Positions 13,619 to 37,022 of a stretch of 64,000 bases of DNA are shown here, one piece after another. Origin of the DNA: Paenibacillus lycopersici (GTDB lineage: Bacteria > Bacillota > Bacilli > Paenibacillales > Paenibacillaceae); NCBI RefSeq assembly GCF_010119935.1, contig NZ_CP048209.1, forward strand, positions 2,979,001 through 3,043,000. The letters are read 5' to 3'. The position numbers and the translations under genes were made by a program. How positions within the stretch are numbered: position 1 is the first letter of the stretch; every line of letters begins with the position of its first letter. The notes below the pieces were generated by a model. It was not told the origin of the DNA, searched no databases, and worked only from the letters and a program-made list of their open reading frames with translations.

Positions 13619-13647
13619 TTGACTATTCAAACAACAACGTATAAAAT
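13619..13647 (+). promoter_or_regulatory. Promoter of the riboswitch transcript
   Basis: TTGACT (13619-13624) and TAAAAT (13642-13647) are 17 bp apart in a locally AT-rich stretch, just upstream of the c-di-AMP riboswitch. Confidence 0.65.
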
Positions 13648-13654
13648 AAAGCTA

Positions 13655-13795
13655 CGCTTAATTTTCGGCTTATCGCCGAAAAGCGGGGGAACCAGTCAAT
13701 TGGGGCGAATCGTTCGATGTAAGGAACGTAGGGTACCATCTTACCCGAGTCCGTCAGCTAACCTCGTCAGCAGTGGATGGGTCTATCTTTATATG
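13655..13795 (+). ncRNA. c-di-AMP riboswitch (ydaO/yuaA type)
   Basis: The leader holds the hallmark blocks of this class in order: CGCCGAAAAGCGGGGGAACC (13675-13694), TGGGGCGAATC, GTAGGGTACC, then CCGAGTCCGTCAGCTAACCT (13745-13764) followed by CGTCAGCAGTGG. These match the consensus GGGGGAACC..GGGGTGAATC..CCGTCAGCTAACCTCGTAGGC. The riboswitch binds c-di-AMP and usually turns expression off through a terminator, which is present here at 13808. It controls the KamA-family gene at 13917. Confidence 0.93.
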
Positions 13796-13916: not shown

Positions 13917-15062
13917 GTGAAGAAAGTCAAATATTTCACGGACGTAAACAAGGTGAAGCACTTATCCGAACACGAGAAAAAGACGTTGAAGCCGATTACG
14001 GAGAAATTCGTCTTTCGCGTCAACGACTATTACATGGATCTGATCGATTGGAATGATCCGCATGATCCGATCCGCAAGCTCGTTATTCCGAACGAAGGCG
14101 AATTGCTGGAATACGGCCGGTGGGATGCTTCCGACGAGGATACGAATTACGTCGTTCCGGGCTGTCAGCATAAGTACTCGACCACGGCGCTGCTGATCGT
14201 GTCCGAGGTATGCGGGTCGTACTGCCGGTACTGCTTTCGCAAACGTCTGTTCCGGAACGATGTCAAGGAAGCGATGTCCGACGTGACGCCGGGGATTCGT
14301 TATATTGCAGAAACGCCCGAGATCAACAATGTACTGCTGACCGGCGGGGATAGCCTGATTCTCGCCACCTCCAAGCTTCGCATCATCATCGAGCAGCTGC
14401 GGCAGATCGATCATGTGAAGATCATCCGGCTCGGTTCGAAGATGCCGGTATTTAACCCGATGCGGATTTACGAGGATGAAGAGCTTCTGGAACTGATCCG
14501 TACCTATTCGACGGAAGAGAAACGTATTTACGTCATGGCGCATATCAATCATCCGCGCGAAATTACAGCCGAAGCCAAGCGGGGCTTCCGGGCGCTCCAC
14601 GAGGCCGGGGCGATCGTCGTCAACCAGACCCCCGTTCTGAAAGGCATCAATGACGACCCGGCCGTGCTGGCTGAATTGCTCGATAAGCTGTCTTGGGCGG
14701 GAGTCACGCCGTATTATTTCTTTATCAACCGTCCCGTGGCCGGCAACCGGGATTTCGTGCTGCCGTTATCCCAGGTTTACCGCATCGTCGAAGACGCCAA
14801 AGCAAGAACCTCGGGATTGGGCAAGCGGGTGCGTCTGTCGATGAGCCATACTTCGGGAAAAATCGAAATCCTGGCGATTGAAGAGGGAACCGCTTATCTG
14901 AAGTACCATCAATCGAGAGACAATCAATACGGCAAGTTCATGAAGCTCGCTTGCCCCGACGAGGCGGAATGGTTCGACGACCTGCCCGGGAGCGAAGTGT
15001 ACTGGAACAAGCCCAAGAAGAAGAACGAGGCTATCGTCTCCGCGAATGAAATATTCGATTGA
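13917..15062 (+). CDS. KamA-family radical SAM aminomutase-like protein
   Basis: A 381-aa radical SAM protein. C99, C103 and C106 (CGSYCRYC) bind the 4Fe-4S cluster, and K315 in HTSGKIE is the expected PLP-binding lysine. The family moves an alpha-amino group to the beta carbon (lysine to beta-lysine, glutamate to beta-glutamate). In lysine 2,3-aminomutase two aspartates hold the lysine side-chain amine. At the matching places here I read N271 (or I270) and a serine seven residues before K315, so lysine may not be the substrate. The usual partner acetyltransferase AblB is absent. Expression is gated by a c-di-AMP riboswitch. ATG or GTG at 13917 follows AAGAGGAGAG. Confidence 0.85.
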   Translation: MKKVKYFTDVNKVKHLSEHEKKTLKPITEKFVFRVNDYYMDLIDWNDPHDPIRKLVIPNEGELLEYGRWDASDEDTNYVVPGCQHKYSTTALLIVSEVCGSYCRYCFRKRLFRNDVKEAMSDVTPGIRYIAETPEINNVLLTGGDSLILATSKLRIIIEQLRQIDHVKIIRLGSKMPVFNPMRIYEDEELLELIRTYSTEEKRIYVMAHINHPREITAEAKRGFRALHEAGAIVVNQTPVLKGINDDPAVLAELLDKLSWAGVTPYYFFINRPVAGNRDFVLPLSQVYRIVEDAKARTSGLGKRVRLSMSHTSGKIEILAIEEGTAYLKYHQSRDNQYGKFMKLACPDEAEWFDDLPGSEVYWNKPKKKNEAIVSANEIFD

Positions 15063-15393: not shown

Positions 15394-16881
15394 ATGTGGA
15401 CGTATACGATTAATTTGGTTCGCGATTTATCTCCGGGCGTGAAGCGGTTCATCGCGACGGAGAGCTTGTTCGGCATCGGTGCCGGCATATTCGGCTTGAT
15501 TCTTAATTTGCATCTGCTCGATCTCGGCTTCTCCAAGGCCTTCATCGGCCAGATCACGTCGCTGGGGGCGCTGACGGTCGGCTTGACCAGCCTGCCCGCA
15601 GGTTTGATCGTCAAGCGCGTCGGGCGCAAAAAGATGCTGGTGATCGGCATGCTGCTGGCGTTCGTCTCGCTCGTGCTGTTCGGCGCCGGCACGGGCGCCG
15701 CGGCGGTCATTGCCGCGCAGCTCATCTGGTCGCTCGGCATGACGGCGGTCGTCAATTCGGAAATTCAGCTCATCTTCCAATATTGCCGCAGCAAGAAGGA
15801 AGAGACGAGCGCGTATTCGCTGCTGTTCGCGGTGTTCACGTTCTTCACCGGCGTCGGCACGTGGGTGGCCGGATATTTGCCGGACTGGATGCCGGGTCAT
15901 TCGACGGTTTATCAATACGCGTTCTTCGCGGCGGGAGGCTGCTTGGCGCTCGCGGGCATCCTGCGGGGCGCGCTGCTGCCTTCCACGAATGCGAGGGCGG
16001 AGATCGCGGCGGGTGCGGCGGATAGCGATGCGGAGAATAGCGCGGGCGGCGCAGCGGGGATCGCTGCGGAGGCCGCAACGGGCCGAGCCGAGCAAGCAGC
16101 TGCGGAGGCCGCAGCGGGCCGAGCCGGGAAAGCGGCTACGGAGGCCGCGACGGGCCGAGCCGGGAAAGCGGCTACGGAGGCCGCGACGGGCCGAGCCGGG
16201 AAAGCGGCTACGGAGGCCGCGACGGGTCGAGCCGAGCAAGCAGCGGCCTCCGGGCCGGCGGCATCGGCCGAAGCGGCCGCGAAGGCGAAGAAGGGCCAAG
16301 CCTCCTATCGCTTCCTGCTCCTGTTGGCGATGCTGATCTTCACGTCCGGATTTACGTTCGGTCTGCTTAATCCGTTCCTGAACGTCATCCTGAAATTCAG
16401 GTTCGGGATGGAGGACGGCCTGATTTCCGGGCTGCTTGCGCTGTCGGGGTTCTTCTTCTTCATCGGCTCCCTTGCGATGCCGTATTGCGTGGAGCGGTTC
16501 GGCAGCCGCAGGACGTTCGTCGGCCTGTTCCTCTTCAATGCGATTATCGCGGCGGCGATGGCGGCGAGCATGCCCGCGGCGCTGTTCGCCGGCTTGCTGC
16601 TCGCGCGCGGAGCGGGTTTTACGATGCTGAACAACCTGATGGACAGCGAGTGCATGTCGGCCGTCGACGAGGACGAACGCAATTTGTTCGCGGGCATGCG
16701 GACCGTTTCGCGCAGCGTCGGCAATACGATCGCGTCGTACTGGGCGGGGTATATTTTGGCCGGCGATCATTATGCGTGGCCATTCCTGCTGACGGCGGCC
16801 GCCGTCCTGGCAGGCTATGCGATCTATGCGCGGTTCGTGCAGGGCAGGCTGGACCGGCGGCTGAGCGGGCAGGCCGGGTGA
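15394..16881 (+). CDS. MFS transporter with alanine-rich repeat in the central loop
   Basis: A 495-aa, 12-helix major facilitator protein. The N-half has the loop motif GLIVKRVGRKK between helices 2 and 3. About 100 residues between the two six-helix halves (about 200-300) are low-complexity, with AATEAATGRAGK-type 12-residue repeats, and predicted cytoplasmic. This loop normally spans 20-40 residues. The substrate is unknown, probably drug or metabolite efflux. The gene runs on into the Rieske gene 42 bp later. Confidence 0.85.
   Translation: MWTYTINLVRDLSPGVKRFIATESLFGIGAGIFGLILNLHLLDLGFSKAFIGQITSLGALTVGLTSLPAGLIVKRVGRKKMLVIGMLLAFVSLVLFGAGTGAAAVIAAQLIWSLGMTAVVNSEIQLIFQYCRSKKEETSAYSLLFAVFTFFTGVGTWVAGYLPDWMPGHSTVYQYAFFAAGGCLALAGILRGALLPSTNARAEIAAGAADSDAENSAGGAAGIAAEAATGRAEQAAAEAAAGRAGKAATEAATGRAGKAATEAATGRAGKAATEAATGRAEQAAASGPAASAEAAAKAKKGQASYRFLLLLAMLIFTSGFTFGLLNPFLNVILKFRFGMEDGLISGLLALSGFFFFIGSLAMPYCVERFGSRRTFVGLFLFNAIIAAAMAASMPAALFAGLLLARGAGFTMLNNLMDSECMSAVDEDERNLFAGMRTVSRSVGNTIASYWAGYILAGDHYAWPFLLTAAAVLAGYAIYARFVQGRLDRRLSGQAG
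16064..16245 (+). repeat. 36-bp coding minisatellite (about five copies)
   Basis: Unit of twelve codons (Ala-Ala-Thr-Glu-Ala-Ala-Thr-Gly-Arg-Ala-Gly-Lys), with three central copies nearly identical in DNA and the outer copies variant. Whole-codon length keeps the frame open, so copy number can change without breaking the MFS protein. Confidence 0.9.
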
Positions 16882-16923: not shown

Positions 16924-17469
16924 ATGGACCGTAAAATGCCGGACCACATCACCCGCAGGGCGTTTCTGGGCACAGCGGCCAAAGTCGCGCTGGGCGCGGC
17001 AGGCCTGGTCGGCGGCAGCGCCGGGTTGTTTTATTACGGGGCGGTGAAGCACCGTAAAGTCGGCAGCGACGCGCTTCCGCCCAATATCGTCAGGCTCGGC
17101 GAGGTCGCGGACTTGAAGCTGCTGCAAGGGGTGGCCAAAGTGGCATACGAAGCCGAATACATCGACGCGTGGTATACGAAACCGGTGAAGGGCTTCGTCT
17201 ATGTCACGGTCGGAGCACAAGGCCAATTGCTCATTATGTCGCCCGCATGCAGTCATCTGGGCTGCGATGTCGTGCCGGCTTCGGAGGCGCAGCAGGGCGG
17301 GAACAAGGACATGTACTTCTGGTGCCCGTGCCATGGCGCCGGCTTCGACAGCGAGGGCGGCGCGGTTGTCGTCGTCGATCGCGGCTTGGACACGTATGAG
17401 CCGATTATCTCCGGCGGCAGCGTCTTCTTTGACGTGATGAAGCCGATACCGGGAGAGACGATCGCATAG
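16924..17469 (+). CDS. Rieske 2Fe-2S protein with Tat signal
   Basis: The 181-aa protein has a twin-arginine start (THRRAFLG-like, ITRRAFLGTAAK at 9-20), a membrane anchor and a Rieske centre: C109-S-H111 and C134-P-C136-H137 (CSHLGC, CPCHGAGF), with C114/C136 as the disulfide pair. It resembles the iron-sulfur subunit of menaquinol:cytochrome c reductase, but no cytochrome b or c1 gene is next to it. It may be an arsenite-oxidase-like or stand-alone Rieske electron carrier outside the membrane. GGAGTG precedes the ATG. Confidence 0.88.
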   Translation: MDRKMPDHITRRAFLGTAAKVALGAAGLVGGSAGLFYYGAVKHRKVGSDALPPNIVRLGEVADLKLLQGVAKVAYEAEYIDAWYTKPVKGFVYVTVGAQGQLLIMSPACSHLGCDVVPASEAQQGGNKDMYFWCPCHGAGFDSEGGAVVVVDRGLDTYEPIISGGSVFFDVMKPIPGETIA

Positions 17470-17524
17470 ATCGGGCAGCGGAGCAGGCTGCGCGCACGGC
17501 GCGGCCGACAGGTTAACCAAAGAG

Positions 17525-17630
17525 AACGGCAGCGATGCCGTTTCAGGCTGTCGAGAATTCGATGCCGCCTATGCCGCAGAAAGGACCATCCTCTAAGATT
17601 CGCGGACAGAGGCTCCGTCCCTCTGGTAAT
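17525..17630 (+). repeat. Dispersed repeat family R1, copy A
   Basis: An AACGGCAGCGATGCCGTT hairpin is followed by TTTCAGGCTGTCGAG, a GAATTC hairpin, ATGCCGCCTATG and CGCGGACAGAGG. Similar blocks occur at 44124-44240 and in part at 43483-43550. The hairpin may also end the Rieske transcript. Confidence 0.7.
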
Positions 17631-17787
17631 AATGGTTTTTCTCACGTATGCTCTCTCATTCGCAGGATTTCAAGTGCATTGGACAGGTGACAGAAGCTAG
17701 GCAAGGTAGCCGACTCCCCAAGCAAAGCGCAGGCGGGCATGCGGGAATAGAGGATGCCATAGAAGCTCCTTTGCGAGGAGGGAAATT

Positions 17788-18440
17788 GGAAAAGTTGCCC
17801 GTATAGCAACTTTACCGGCATTATTGCCGGCCAGAGGCGGGAAAAGTTGCTCGAATAGCAACTTTACCGACATTATTGCCGGTCCGTGGCGGGAAAAGTT
17901 GCTCGAACAGCAACTTTACCGGCATTATTGCCGGTCCGTGGCGGGAAAAGTTGCTCGAACAGCAACTTTACCGGCATTTTTACCGGCCAGAGGCGGGAAA
18001 AGTTGCTCGAACAGCAACTTTACCGGCACTTTTACCGGCCAGAGGCGGGAAAAGTTGCTCGAACAGCAACTTTACCGACATTATTGCCGGTCCGTGGCGG
18101 GAAAAGTTGCTCGAATAGCAACTTTTCCGGCATTATTGCCGGTCCGTGGCGGGAAAAGTTGCTCGAATAGCAACTTTTCCGGCATTTTTACCGGCCAGAG
18201 GCGGGAAAAGTTGCCCGAACAGCAACTTTACCGGCATGTTTACCGGCCAGAGGCGGGAAAAGTTGCTCGAACAGCAACTTTACCGACATTATTGCCGGTC
18301 CGTGGCGGGAAAAGTTGCTCGAACAGCAACTTTACCGGCATGTTTACCGGCCAGAGGCGGGAAAAGTTGCCCGAACAGCAACTTTACCGATATTTTAGTC
18401 GGTCTGACGCGAATAAAGTTGTTCGTATAGCAACTTTTCG
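17788..18440 (+). repeat. Thirteen-copy array of 52-bp double-hairpin repeats
   Basis: The block AAAGTTG recurs at exactly 52-bp steps from 17791 to 18415 (thirteen units). Each unit holds two inverted repeats: AAGTTGCT..AGCAACTT and CCGGCA..TGCCGG, joined by GCGGGA and either CCAGAG or TCCGTG linkers. Loops vary while stems hold, and the last unit has paired changes (ACCGA..TCGGT). No open frame across it resembles a protein. It fills most of the gene-free stretch 17470-18490. Confidence 0.92.
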
Positions 18441-18490
18441 ACTTTTCGTCATTCTGAGGCAGGTGTGTAAGGTTCTTTGCAAGGCTACTG

Positions 18491-18806
18491 GTTAATGTCC
18501 TCGAATGACATCGACAACAGGCTAATCAGCCGAAATAGCGGATCTCCTGTCCGCCAGCACGCGAAAACACGTGATAAAGAAGCGAATAACGGATTTCCTG
18601 TCCGCTGCCTTGCATCGACGGACGCACCGTGAACCAGCCGTCATGAAACCGGCTGGTTCGAAACGGTCACAGCCGTCCATGAAACGCCGGCGAAGCGGCA
18701 ACAGGATCTGTTCGTGTGCCAGGCGCAGGTTGCCGCGAGTCTCCTCGAAGCGGCTTATAGGTTTCGCAACAATCTGAAACGGCAGCGATGCCGTTTTCTT
18801 TTTTGG
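18491..18806 (+). repeat. Dispersed repeat family R2, copy A
   Basis: About 315 bp starting GTTAATGTCCTCGAATGACA and holding tandem GCGGAT(C/T)TCCTGTCCG(C) blocks, a TCATGAAACCGGCTGGTTCG-type block, and a final AACGGC..GCCGTT hairpin followed by TTTTC and six Ts. A second full copy lies at 44283-44620. The final hairpin looks like a terminator. Confidence 0.8.
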
Positions 18807-18969
18807 GGCTGGGGCGTAAGGAACGCCAAGTTGATTGTCCCGCTGCCGATGAAGAGACGAATGCATCTTTATTTTGCAGGCCGCCATCTATGATTATCAA
18901 AAATCAAAAAGCATGCGAATGCTTGTATAATAAGGTATTGGACATGCGTACCGGTCAGCGTTCGGAGGG

Positions 18970-19285
18970 CAGCAGCCGGCATATTAATAGGCTCGAGACG
19001 AAGGATTTCAAGCGGCCGCTATCGAAGGGTATGGCAGAACGTTGCCGGCGATGAAGGCGTTCCCGGCGACGCGGTAGACGCGGTATCACACGGCCGGCGA
19101 AGACGCCCCATACCTGGAATTTCGATTTGTTGTTCAAGAAGCCGGGGATTATGAGGTAAAATTGGATATGCAGCCTTCCAATACGGTCACGACGGCCGAT
19201 AATACGCTGCATCACGGCATTCAAGCCAATGACGGGCAGATTGAGGCCGCGATTGCGATTGCGGAAGGTCATGCGGCAAGCGAAT
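18970..19285 (+). pseudogene. Decayed 3' end of a GH115 glucuronidase-like gene
   Basis: Three successive reading frames carry pieces that look like the C-terminal domain of glycoside hydrolase family 115: HINRLETKDFKR, then IEGYGRTLPAMKAFPAT, then HTAGEDAPYLEFRFVV continuing into QEAGDYEVKLDMQPSN and DNTLHHGIQANDGQIEAAIAI. At least two frameshifts separate them and no 5' part is present. GH115 enzymes remove 4-O-methyl-glucuronate from xylan. The assignment rests on pattern memory. Confidence 0.55.
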
Positions 19286-19348
19286 ACAATCATGACCGGG
19301 AGTCCAGAGGCTGCCCATTAATGAATCACGATGAATGGAGAGTGCGCT

Positions 19349-20104
19349 ATGAACAGTAAAGAACGGTTTTCCGATCGGGTGGATACCTATGTCAAATATC
19401 GTCCGAGCTATCCGCAGGAGGCGCTGGATTACTTATACGGCACCGTCGGCATGAACGCCGCTTCGTCCGTGGCGGATGTCGGCGCCGGGACGGGGATCTT
19501 CTCCAGGCTGCTCGTCGAACGCGGCAGCCGCGTCATCGCGGTGGAGCCGAATCCGGAGATGCGGGCGGCAGCCGTCGCGGCGCTGTCGGCCTCGCCCAAC
19601 TATGTCGCCGTGGCCGGGTCCGCCGAGGAGACGACGCTTGCGGAACAGTCCGTCGATTTCATCGTCTGCGCCCAGTCGTTTCACTGGTTCGATCGGACGG
19701 CGGCCCAAGCGGAGTTCCGGCGGATCCTGAAGCCGGGCGGCAAGGCCGTGCTGATCTGGAATTCGCGCATGACGGAAGGCACGCCGTTCCGGGAAGGCTA
19801 CGACCGAATGCTGAAGGATTACGCGACGGATTACGAACAGATGACGCACAAGAACATCGCCTCGGCCGACCTGGCCCGGTTCTTCAAGCCGGGAGCGATG
19901 CGGGAAGCAAGGTTCACGATGAGCCAGTCGTTCGATCTCGAAGGCTTGAAAGGACGTCTGCTGTCGTCGTCGTACGCGCCGATGCCGGGCCATCCGAACC
20001 ATGAGCCGATGATCGCGGCGCTTGAGGAGCTGTTCGAGGCGACAAGCAAGGACGGCAGCGTCGACTTCGAATACGAGACGGAAGTGTATTGGGGCGAAGT
20101 ATAG
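19349..20104 (+). CDS. Class I SAM-dependent methyltransferase
   Basis: A 251-aa methyltransferase. It begins MNSKERFSDRVDTYVKYRPSYP, with motif I VADVGAGTGIFSRLL and post-I VIAVEPNPEMR, followed by VDFIVCAQSFHWFD; this pattern is common in Methyltransf_11 proteins. The start at 19349 follows ATGGAGAG by 6 nt; an in-frame ATG at 19331 lacks such a site. It is closed by a terminator at 20153. Substrate unknown. Confidence 0.87.
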   Translation: MNSKERFSDRVDTYVKYRPSYPQEALDYLYGTVGMNAASSVADVGAGTGIFSRLLVERGSRVIAVEPNPEMRAAAVAALSASPNYVAVAGSAEETTLAEQSVDFIVCAQSFHWFDRTAAQAEFRRILKPGGKAVLIWNSRMTEGTPFREGYDRMLKDYATDYEQMTHKNIASADLARFFKPGAMREARFTMSQSFDLEGLKGRLLSSSYAPMPGHPNHEPMIAALEELFEATSKDGSVDFEYETEVYWGEV

Positions 20105-34920: not shown

Positions 34921-35114
34921 AAGGGCTGGAGAGCGGCCGTATTGGGCAAGTGCGGATTGTAAGGACGAGAGCGGCCGTATTGGGCAGGCGTGGAATGTAA
35001 GGACTGGAGAGCGGTCGTATTAGGCAGTGCGGAATGCAAGGACGAGAGCTGCCGTATTAGGCAGGCGTGGAACGTAAGGACTGGAGAGCGGTCGTATTAG
35101 GCAGTGCGGAATGC
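34921..35114 (+). repeat. Five tandem units of 38-40 bp
   Basis: Units start at 34921, 34961, 34999, 35038 and 35076. Two unit types alternate: AAGGACTGGAGAGCGGTCGT followed by ATTAGGCAGTGCGGAATGC, and AAGGACGAGAGCTGCCGT followed by ATTAGGCAGGCGTGGAACGT. Units 3 and 5 are identical. No gene is apparent in 34811-35464. Confidence 0.88.
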
Positions 35115-35142
35115 AAGGACTGCAGGGGCAGCATGTAGCAAA

Positions 35143-35250
35143 CTACAAGGGCAACAAGGGCAACAAGGGCAACAAAGAGTAGAAAGGCAACAAAGACTAC
35201 AAAGACTACAAAGACTACAAAGACTACAAAGACTACAAAGGCAACGTGGG
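35143..35250 (+). repeat. 9-bp microsatellite (AAGGGCAAC / AAAGACTAC)
   Basis: Three AAGGGCAAC units are followed, after a short variant, by five perfect AAAGACTAC units (35192-35236). All forward frames stay open as simple peptides, which is a by-product of the 9-bp period and not evidence of a gene. Confidence 0.9.
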
Positions 35251-36820: not shown

Positions 36821-36821
36821 G

Positions 36822-37022
36822 GGCCCGCCGGCGCCGAGCGCATGGCCGCCAGCGCCGGCGCCGAGCGCAGGGCCCGCCGGCGCCGAGCGCAGGGCCCGCC
36901 GGCGCCGAGCGCAGGGCCCGCCGGCGCCGAGCGCAGGGCCCGCCGGCGCCGAGCGCAGGGCCCGCCGGCGCCGAGCGCATGGCTCGCCGGCGCCGAGCGC
37001 ATGGCCCGCCGGCGCCGAGCGC
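36822..37022 (+). repeat. GC-rich 21-bp minisatellite, nine copies
   Basis: Unit GGCCCGCCGGCGCCGAGCGCA repeated nine times with few changes (A or T in the third last position, one 24-bp unit). It lies between the IS element and the terminator of the GxGYxYP gene. Because 21 is a multiple of three and the unit lacks stops, several frames stay open; none is a credible gene. Confidence 0.92.

Follow-up and report, generated by a model that had tools for sequence, protein, structure and literature searches.

The tandem array of hairpin-forming units analyzed here very probably forms the inner part of a MITE-like, non-autonomous element derived from an IS4-family insertion sequence and assigned to the IS4Sa subgroup by its ends and its target site duplication. 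The array is located in a window of 64,000 nucleotides (positions 2979001-3043000) of the Paenibacillus lycopersici genome, which consists of one contig of 6.74 Mb. The element has spread in this lineage, recently in part, and is probably immobile now.

Within the window, Tandem Repeats Finder places the array at 17788-18389, with a period of 52, 11.6 copies and 91% matches; unit-by-unit reading yields 12 full 52-bp units without indels, spaced by exactly 52 bp (Table 1). The original prediction, made from the letters alone, had described thirteen units, each with two hairpins of conserved stems, in perfect register up to position 18440. The array, its start and its spacing are confirmed, as are 12 of the units, but the thirteenth exists only as a degenerate terminal unit, and the element continues to 18490, where it closes in ...CTTTGCAAGGCTACTG. 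The compensatory pair change ACCGA..TCGGT that had been pointed out is indeed found, in the unit at 18360. The generalization to two conserved stems in every unit does not hold: the unit at 18048 has a mispaired second hairpin (CCGAC..GCCGG) that does not appear in its predicted fold, and the second stem varies like the loops. Four units examined on the + strand, and one of these on the - strand as well, fold better than their shuffles (z-scores from -2.4 to -4.5), whereas the terminal stretch 18412-18490 folds no better than shuffles (z +0.3). This copy, which we refer to as locus L029, is intergenic; its true left boundary is not certain, since only a decayed piece of an inner left end is recognizable there by eye. 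The second copy in the window corresponds to genome positions 3022775-3022956, its low end having been counted by hand.

Table 1. Coordinates, within the window, of the element copies and of the genes flanking the array.
Feature	Start	End	Strand	Remarks
Left neighbour gene, Rieske-domain protein	16924	17469	+	Element lies beyond its stop codon
Probable degenerate remnant of inner left end	17762	17787	+	Putative; aligned by eye with CAGGCTCTTTGCAAAGCTACTGGTACGAGGAGGGAAA of L014 and with other left ends
Twelve full 52-bp units	17788	18411	+	Palindrome AAAGYTG..CARCTTT, then palindrome CCGGC..GCCGG, then tail
Degenerate terminal unit	18412	18459	+	Close counterparts in other element copies
Right terminal repeat	18460	18490	+	CAGGTGTGTAAGGTTCTTTGCAAGGCTACTG; homology between copies stops there
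Right neighbour gene, methyltransferase-domain protein	19331	20104	+	Element lies upstream
Second element copy	43775	43956	-	Two full units, terminal unit, mutated right end

Other repeats and one riboswitch were observed in the same window. A 36-bp repeat with five copies (16063-16241) lies in frame within an MFS transporter gene (15394-16881) and adds a GRAGKAATEAAT stretch in the middle of the protein. Further tandem repeats occupy 34921-35245 and 36821-37022, with periods of 38/77 bp, 9 bp and, in nine copies, 22 bp. The sole Rfam match of the window is a c-di-AMP riboswitch (ydaO/yuaA leader) at 13645-13785, just upstream of a radical SAM gene (13917-15062) that is presumably aminomutase-like.

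The search for further copies in the genome, which the original prediction had proposed as a check, returned 49 BLAST matches to the array. In 37 stretches fetched around these matches, units were counted on both strands, giving 232 units in 43 arrays of at least two units. Two arrays on the + strand of L054 (six units together) were dropped because we judged them to be another repeat, and three arrays split by an IS, or by units that the filter had missed, were merged. This leaves 38 array loci with 2-18 units each, scattered across the chromosome; this number excludes L040, which is more distantly related, and two one-unit remnants in L039. Exact register holds within the window array but is not a rule of the family: 166 of 189 spacings are 52, and the remainder are 50, 51, 53, 102 or 103, four of the 189 stemming from two short L054 arrays judged to be a different repeat. 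Units are 88% identical within an array and 74% between arrays. The length from array to right end is mostly 0.13-1 kb, and gene remnants adjoin 4 of the 38 loci. When 36 loci were compared with mechanically called ORFs, an ORF of at least 120 aa overlapped the array in nine cases, and the orientation of neighbouring genes was evenly mixed (10, 9, 8 and 7 loci, two unknown); at the window locus, these calls mistook an antisense ORF for the Rieske gene, so that the orientation count carries no weight here.

Beyond this genome, where the original prediction had proposed to look among relatives, the array was not found: the 653-bp array has no match in 58 other genomes, 21 of them of the same genus, and the 1143-bp element has none in the 21 other genomes of the genus, searches that diverged cousins could escape. 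Neither the exact nor the degenerate unit pattern occurs in the sets genome_contigs and viral_contigs, from which the species itself is possibly absent; for the transposase fragment described below, genome_contigs gave no confirmed match. An origin from a phage or plasmid was considered and rejected, the array being without match in phage and plasmid collections.

Two arrays are interrupted by the same insertion sequence of Mutator type, which we take to be of the IS256 type (L018:3250-4760, on the reverse complement, and L024:3100-4600; the coordinates follow the direction of the arrays). The two insertions are 99.9% identical over 1492 bp, and their transposase matches PF00872 (E 2.6e-101). 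Both interrupt the first palindrome arm at an identical point and are bordered by 8-bp duplications read by eye (GGTAAAGT, GGAAAAGT); this IS seems to aim at the first palindrome of the unit.

Most arrays share one ending: a degenerate last unit and then, with changes, CAGGTGTGTAAGGTTCTTTGCAAGNCTACTG; beyond it the copies are no longer similar, the homology stopping at CTACTG. A query with the last 99 bp gave 74 matches, of which 35 extend at least to query base 88, two of them at an inner end, R' (CAGGCTCTTTGCAAAGCTACTG). The usual right end is absent at L015, L025, L032 and the second array of L022, and it is altered at L016. On the opposite side, a left domain of about 145 bp directly precedes the array, without a transposase gene, in L009, L010, L011, L013, L016 and L022; it starts, with changes between copies, with CAGCAGACTTGCAAAGATCCTCACACACTGC, the right end in inverted form. 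L050 has this domain separate from the array, and L039 has it inverted. A far left end is recognizable in nine copies and missing from most of the 38 arrays. Terminal inverted repeats are present at both ends of L009, L010, L011, L013, L016 (with its altered right end), L022, L035, L051 and L052; most other copies are without the pair, and in the window copy the left end has decayed. The right ends of L029, L013, L019, L018 and L009 are 97-100% alike, while these copies carry 13, 8, 4, 4 and 18 units (terminal unit included); hence, the number of units changes quickly. The inner end R', a possible original right end of the IS, terminates a stand-alone element of some 147 bp in L050, and in L014 it forms the left end next to an exact duplication; in L051, similar bases form the transposase codons SSFAKN, which align with SSFGKW of relatives.

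Evidence of insertion comes from target site duplications of 9 bp, detected at 10 of the 38 loci: six are exact and four have one mismatch. At predicted boundaries, exact duplications flank L014 (CGAAATCAC), L019 (CGTTAATGT), L051 (CCTAACGAT) and L052 (TCCCGAAGG); a search for direct repeats added L009 (CCATACTCA) and L050 (GCGATACGC), the boundary of L050 being taken from the duplication itself. Duplications matching at 8 of 9 positions were found at L011 and L023 (whose boundary was set by eye) and, by eye, at L010 and L016. As a control, left and right flanks of the 34 tested rows were mispaired: a 9/9 match occurred in none of 1046 combinations and an 8/9 match in 0.5%, with offsets allowed. 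Around the window copy, no 9-bp duplication could be detected; L013, L017 and L022 possess end sequences on both sides, yet no duplication, and L035 shows a 7/9 match with a shift of one base. Matches at L021, L031, L033, L036, L037 and L054 were not counted, because many insertions sit in older repeats, where direct repeats may arise by chance. Many arrays are flanked by further families of short palindromic repeats (for example L036, L054 and L018), in places tandem with a spacing of about 51 bp, and several array elements are inserted among them. One such palindromic repeat, CCTGCC-NNNN-GGNAGGAWTTC, has 34 exact matches on both strands, against none in the control.

The parent family is indicated by gene remnants. 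In L034, L035, L051 and L052, the array stands between the right end and a broken gene for an IS4-type transposase, which is on the opposite strand and reads away from the array. The order in L035, L051 and L052 is left end CAG[T/C]AGCTTTGCAAA, broken transposase gene, array, and right end ..TTTGCARGNCTACTG; in L034, gene and array are present and the far left is masked. The longest open piece of the gene encodes 229 aa; it has no Pfam match and scores 72 bits (E 4.7e-20) against the NCBIfam IS4 model, whose curated cut-off is 115. Of the DDE transposase with a YREK motif that is expected of IS4Sa, only fragments appear, in different frames and copies (VDSSMV, VFDRGYVNYG, YAWRRKIE / YAWHWKIEIFFRALK). 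No intact transposase was seen in the genome, where none of six family matches reaches the cut-off. Relatives occur in 11 of the 58 other genomes. Three of them, from related genomes (L060, L064 and L065), are transposases 33-36% identical to the piece; the elements that contain them measure about 1.44 kb and have the ends CACTAGCGTTGCAT, and upstream of the start codon their leaders fold into a long hairpin (z -1.6, -2.3 and -3.8, respectively). Plasmid elements annotated as IS4Bsu1 and ISTeha5 match the fragment at 30-34% identity.

In a review of the IS4 family (PMC2266710), the IS4Sa subgroup is characterized by ends of the form CA------T, direct repeats of 8-10 bp and a length of 1150-1750 bp. 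The ends of the present elements have this form (CAGTAGACT / CAGTAGCCT / CAGCAGACT), with the left end of L051 beginning CTGCAG, and the duplication measures 9 bp. Including the array, L051 is 1508 bp and L052 1404 bp long; L035, from which parts are missing, is with 1109 bp below the range. The ends and the length of the duplication agree with subgroup IS4Sa, and the transposase fragments are consistent with it. The gene-less copies resemble MITEs in being short, numerous and, in part, flanked by target site duplications.

Taken as a mechanism, the preferred explanation would involve several steps. An IS4-type transposase would have acted on the ends, in trans for the gene-less copies. The unit may have been born by tandem duplication of the subterminal region, an origin suggested by the last unit, which grades into the right end; its source was perhaps a leader hairpin of a transposase gene, such as the relatives have. 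Array length would then shift by slippage or unequal exchange. Because no copy with an intact transposase was found, the family may be dead, or else rely on an enzyme not recognized here.

A further question is whether the array itself works in transposition. Under this extension of the IS4 explanation, each unit would be a degenerate copy of the element's end, the units would serve, at one end of the element, as docking or cleavage sites, and the use of an inner unit would produce truncated copies; we consider it a tentative possibility. In 23 of 35 per-array consensus units, the end profile is matched best at one and the same place (TTTTGCCRGTCTGCRG compared with CTTTGCAAGTCTRCTG), 14 of the 23 with a shuffle p below 0.02; the top match covers 13 of 16 bases (CTGCAGACTGGCAAAA compared with CAGCAGACTTGCAAAG, p 0.004), and a typed consensus gives p 0.016 and 0.030. 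Furthermore, the units of the inverted array in L014 contain CCTAAGACTTGCAAAA, and L019 begins exactly at a unit boundary, beside a 9-bp duplication. Yet these matches are not independent, because the arrays share ancestry; nine of the 23 are weak (p 0.10-0.42), and for the remaining 12 of the 35 arrays, including the window array (p 0.30), another place matches best (p 0.04-0.39). L019 is moreover the only truncated copy with an exact duplication that starts at a unit. These comparisons suggest that the unit derives from the subterminal region and, weakly, that units may be readable as ends. A more specific scheme, in which an IS4-type end was amplified into palindromic end-like units that would offer the transposase a ladder of alternative sites (a 'satellite transposon'), is in our judgment rather unlikely. 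The inverted array of L014 (genome positions 3807755-3807963) is composed of a variant unit whose end-like part is nearly intact, and it perhaps represents an older form of the unit.

The set for the covariation test comprised the 167 distinct ones among 198 units whose next unit follows at exactly 52 bp; L040 was excluded. According to the inferred changes per site, the arms of stem 1 are conserved as sequence (4.25, compared with 10.7 in loop 1, 9.6 in stem 2, 8.8 in loop 2 and 12.9 in the rest), and stem 2 is no better conserved than the loops. The permutation p is 5e-5 for the stem-1 arms and 0.70 for stem 2, in a test biased by the fact that units were found via their arms; the search missed few units, since gaps inside arrays are limited to two spacings near 104 and a single wider one (L011). 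Covariation was assessed with our own R-scape-like script, using a tree of the units and 60 simulations and ignoring recombination between units: among the 167 distinct units no column pair is significant beyond the tree, and the best stem pair ranks 70th of 1176. The nearly invariant arm columns lend this test no power, and structure in the arms stays compatible with it. Pair-breaking combinations are common among the 167 (C-A in 35 at 8-22, C-A in 46 at 12-18, A-C in 34 at 31-40), and wobble pairs favour neither strand consistently (G-T in 49 at 2-28, T-G in 58 at 28-43). A first palindrome kept as sequence rather than as covarying pairs would be expected of a protein site or of a palindromic founder.

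One reading of this pattern is that a host protein, such as a nucleoid factor or one of replication or segregation, recognizes the palindromes as DNA sites, and that these sites were spread by the element and are now used by the cell. Arms conserved as AAAGYTG/CARCTTT without covariation do resemble a recognition sequence, and the loci are distributed over the whole chromosome; but insertion explains that distribution, spacings of 50, 51 and 53 exist, and the array is missing from all 58 other genomes, including the 21 of the genus, as is the pattern from genome_contigs. We therefore regard a host function of this kind as very unlikely. Selection for base pairing, in a structured RNA or a set of stem-loops (a regulatory RNA, a transcript stabilizer or an array of terminators), is more improbable still, although units outfold their shuffles on both strands and the stem-1 arms are conserved. 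Neither stem covaries, pairs are often broken, wobble pairs point to no transcribed strand, Rfam finds nothing in the array at gathering thresholds in a scan of the whole window, and the numbers of terminator-like sites (3, with 3.0 expected) and promoter-like sites (1, with 1.3 expected) at 17400-19400 equal those of shuffles. Of the selection on structure proposed originally, the constraint on the first palindrome is borne out, while neither selection for pairing nor the RNA with many stem-loops finds support. The original prediction had itself named what would speak against it, a lack of covariation together with a lack of other copies in the genome; no covariation was found, but there are 38 array loci, and many of them have transposon ends and target duplications in common, which the prediction did not anticipate. 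Its view that the array is not a plain minisatellite is borne out: local homogenization usually leaves a contrast such as that between 88% identity within and 74% between arrays, but spreading by recombination or slippage alone, without a mobile element, deserves hardly any credence in the face of common ends outside the array, 9-bp duplications (exact at six loci) and transposase fragments.

The preferred explanation, an IS4-type element carrying the array, can be compared with systems described elsewhere, each as far as the available parts of the respective papers describe it. BrickBuilt, a MITE of Porphyromonas gingivalis, carries a 23-nt tandem unit and has 19 copies in one strain, 4 of the 19 with both ends; its ends (GAGACC..) are of IS5 type, its duplications are of inconsistent length, and no transposase remnant is reported there (PMC4596501). 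Shared with BrickBuilt are an intergenic position (here, of the window copy), an internal array of variable unit number between leader and tail, predicted stem-loops, the small number of copies with both ends and the scarcity of matches outside the species group of BrickBuilt. The present element differs in its 52-nt hairpin unit, IS4Sa-type ends, clean 9-bp duplications and transposase remnants in four copies. Since neither the ends of BrickBuilt and PgRS (GAGACC.., GAGACT..) nor their 23- and 41-nt units are matched here, it is built alike without being a member; MITE464/PgRS of P. gingivalis, with 41-nt repeats according to PMC4596501, shares the internal tandem array and has another unit and other ends. 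IS4Sa elements are described in the available part of PMC2266710 without a tandem hairpin array, whereas here an array is present and the transposase is broken in every copy found. REP/BIME sequences (PMC3733652) are likewise dispersed palindromes, but those of the present family are arranged in long regular arrays that have transposon ends and 9-bp duplications around them. Prokaryotic MITEs have been reviewed (PMC10969869), and our literature search for a Paenibacillus MITE with a tandem repeat found none. BrickBuilt is thus the nearest published case found; what would be new here is the identified parent family, the hairpin unit and the clean 9-bp duplications.

A survey of prokaryotic satellites, in the sections available, describes scattered non-coding satellites with long repeats as rare; scattered tandem arrays of this kind in Leptospira interrogans and Methanocella conradii are reported there with the mechanism of spreading left open (PMC6749651). 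No concrete mechanism is named for them in those sections, whereas in the case presented here the spreading is ascribed to an IS4-type element. The copies in this one genome illustrate a route by which a satellite-like repeat can spread through a bacterial chromosome. With ends, duplications, gene remnants and recent copies that differ in length, the growth of an array during or after transposition becomes measurable. The family also calls for caution: where tandem hairpins show apparent compensatory changes, an RNA or nucleoid function need not follow. If units did act as alternative transposase sites, a satellite transposon would yield truncated copies and carry its satellite across the chromosome, and it would explain in concrete terms how non-coding satellites come to be dispersed in prokaryotes.
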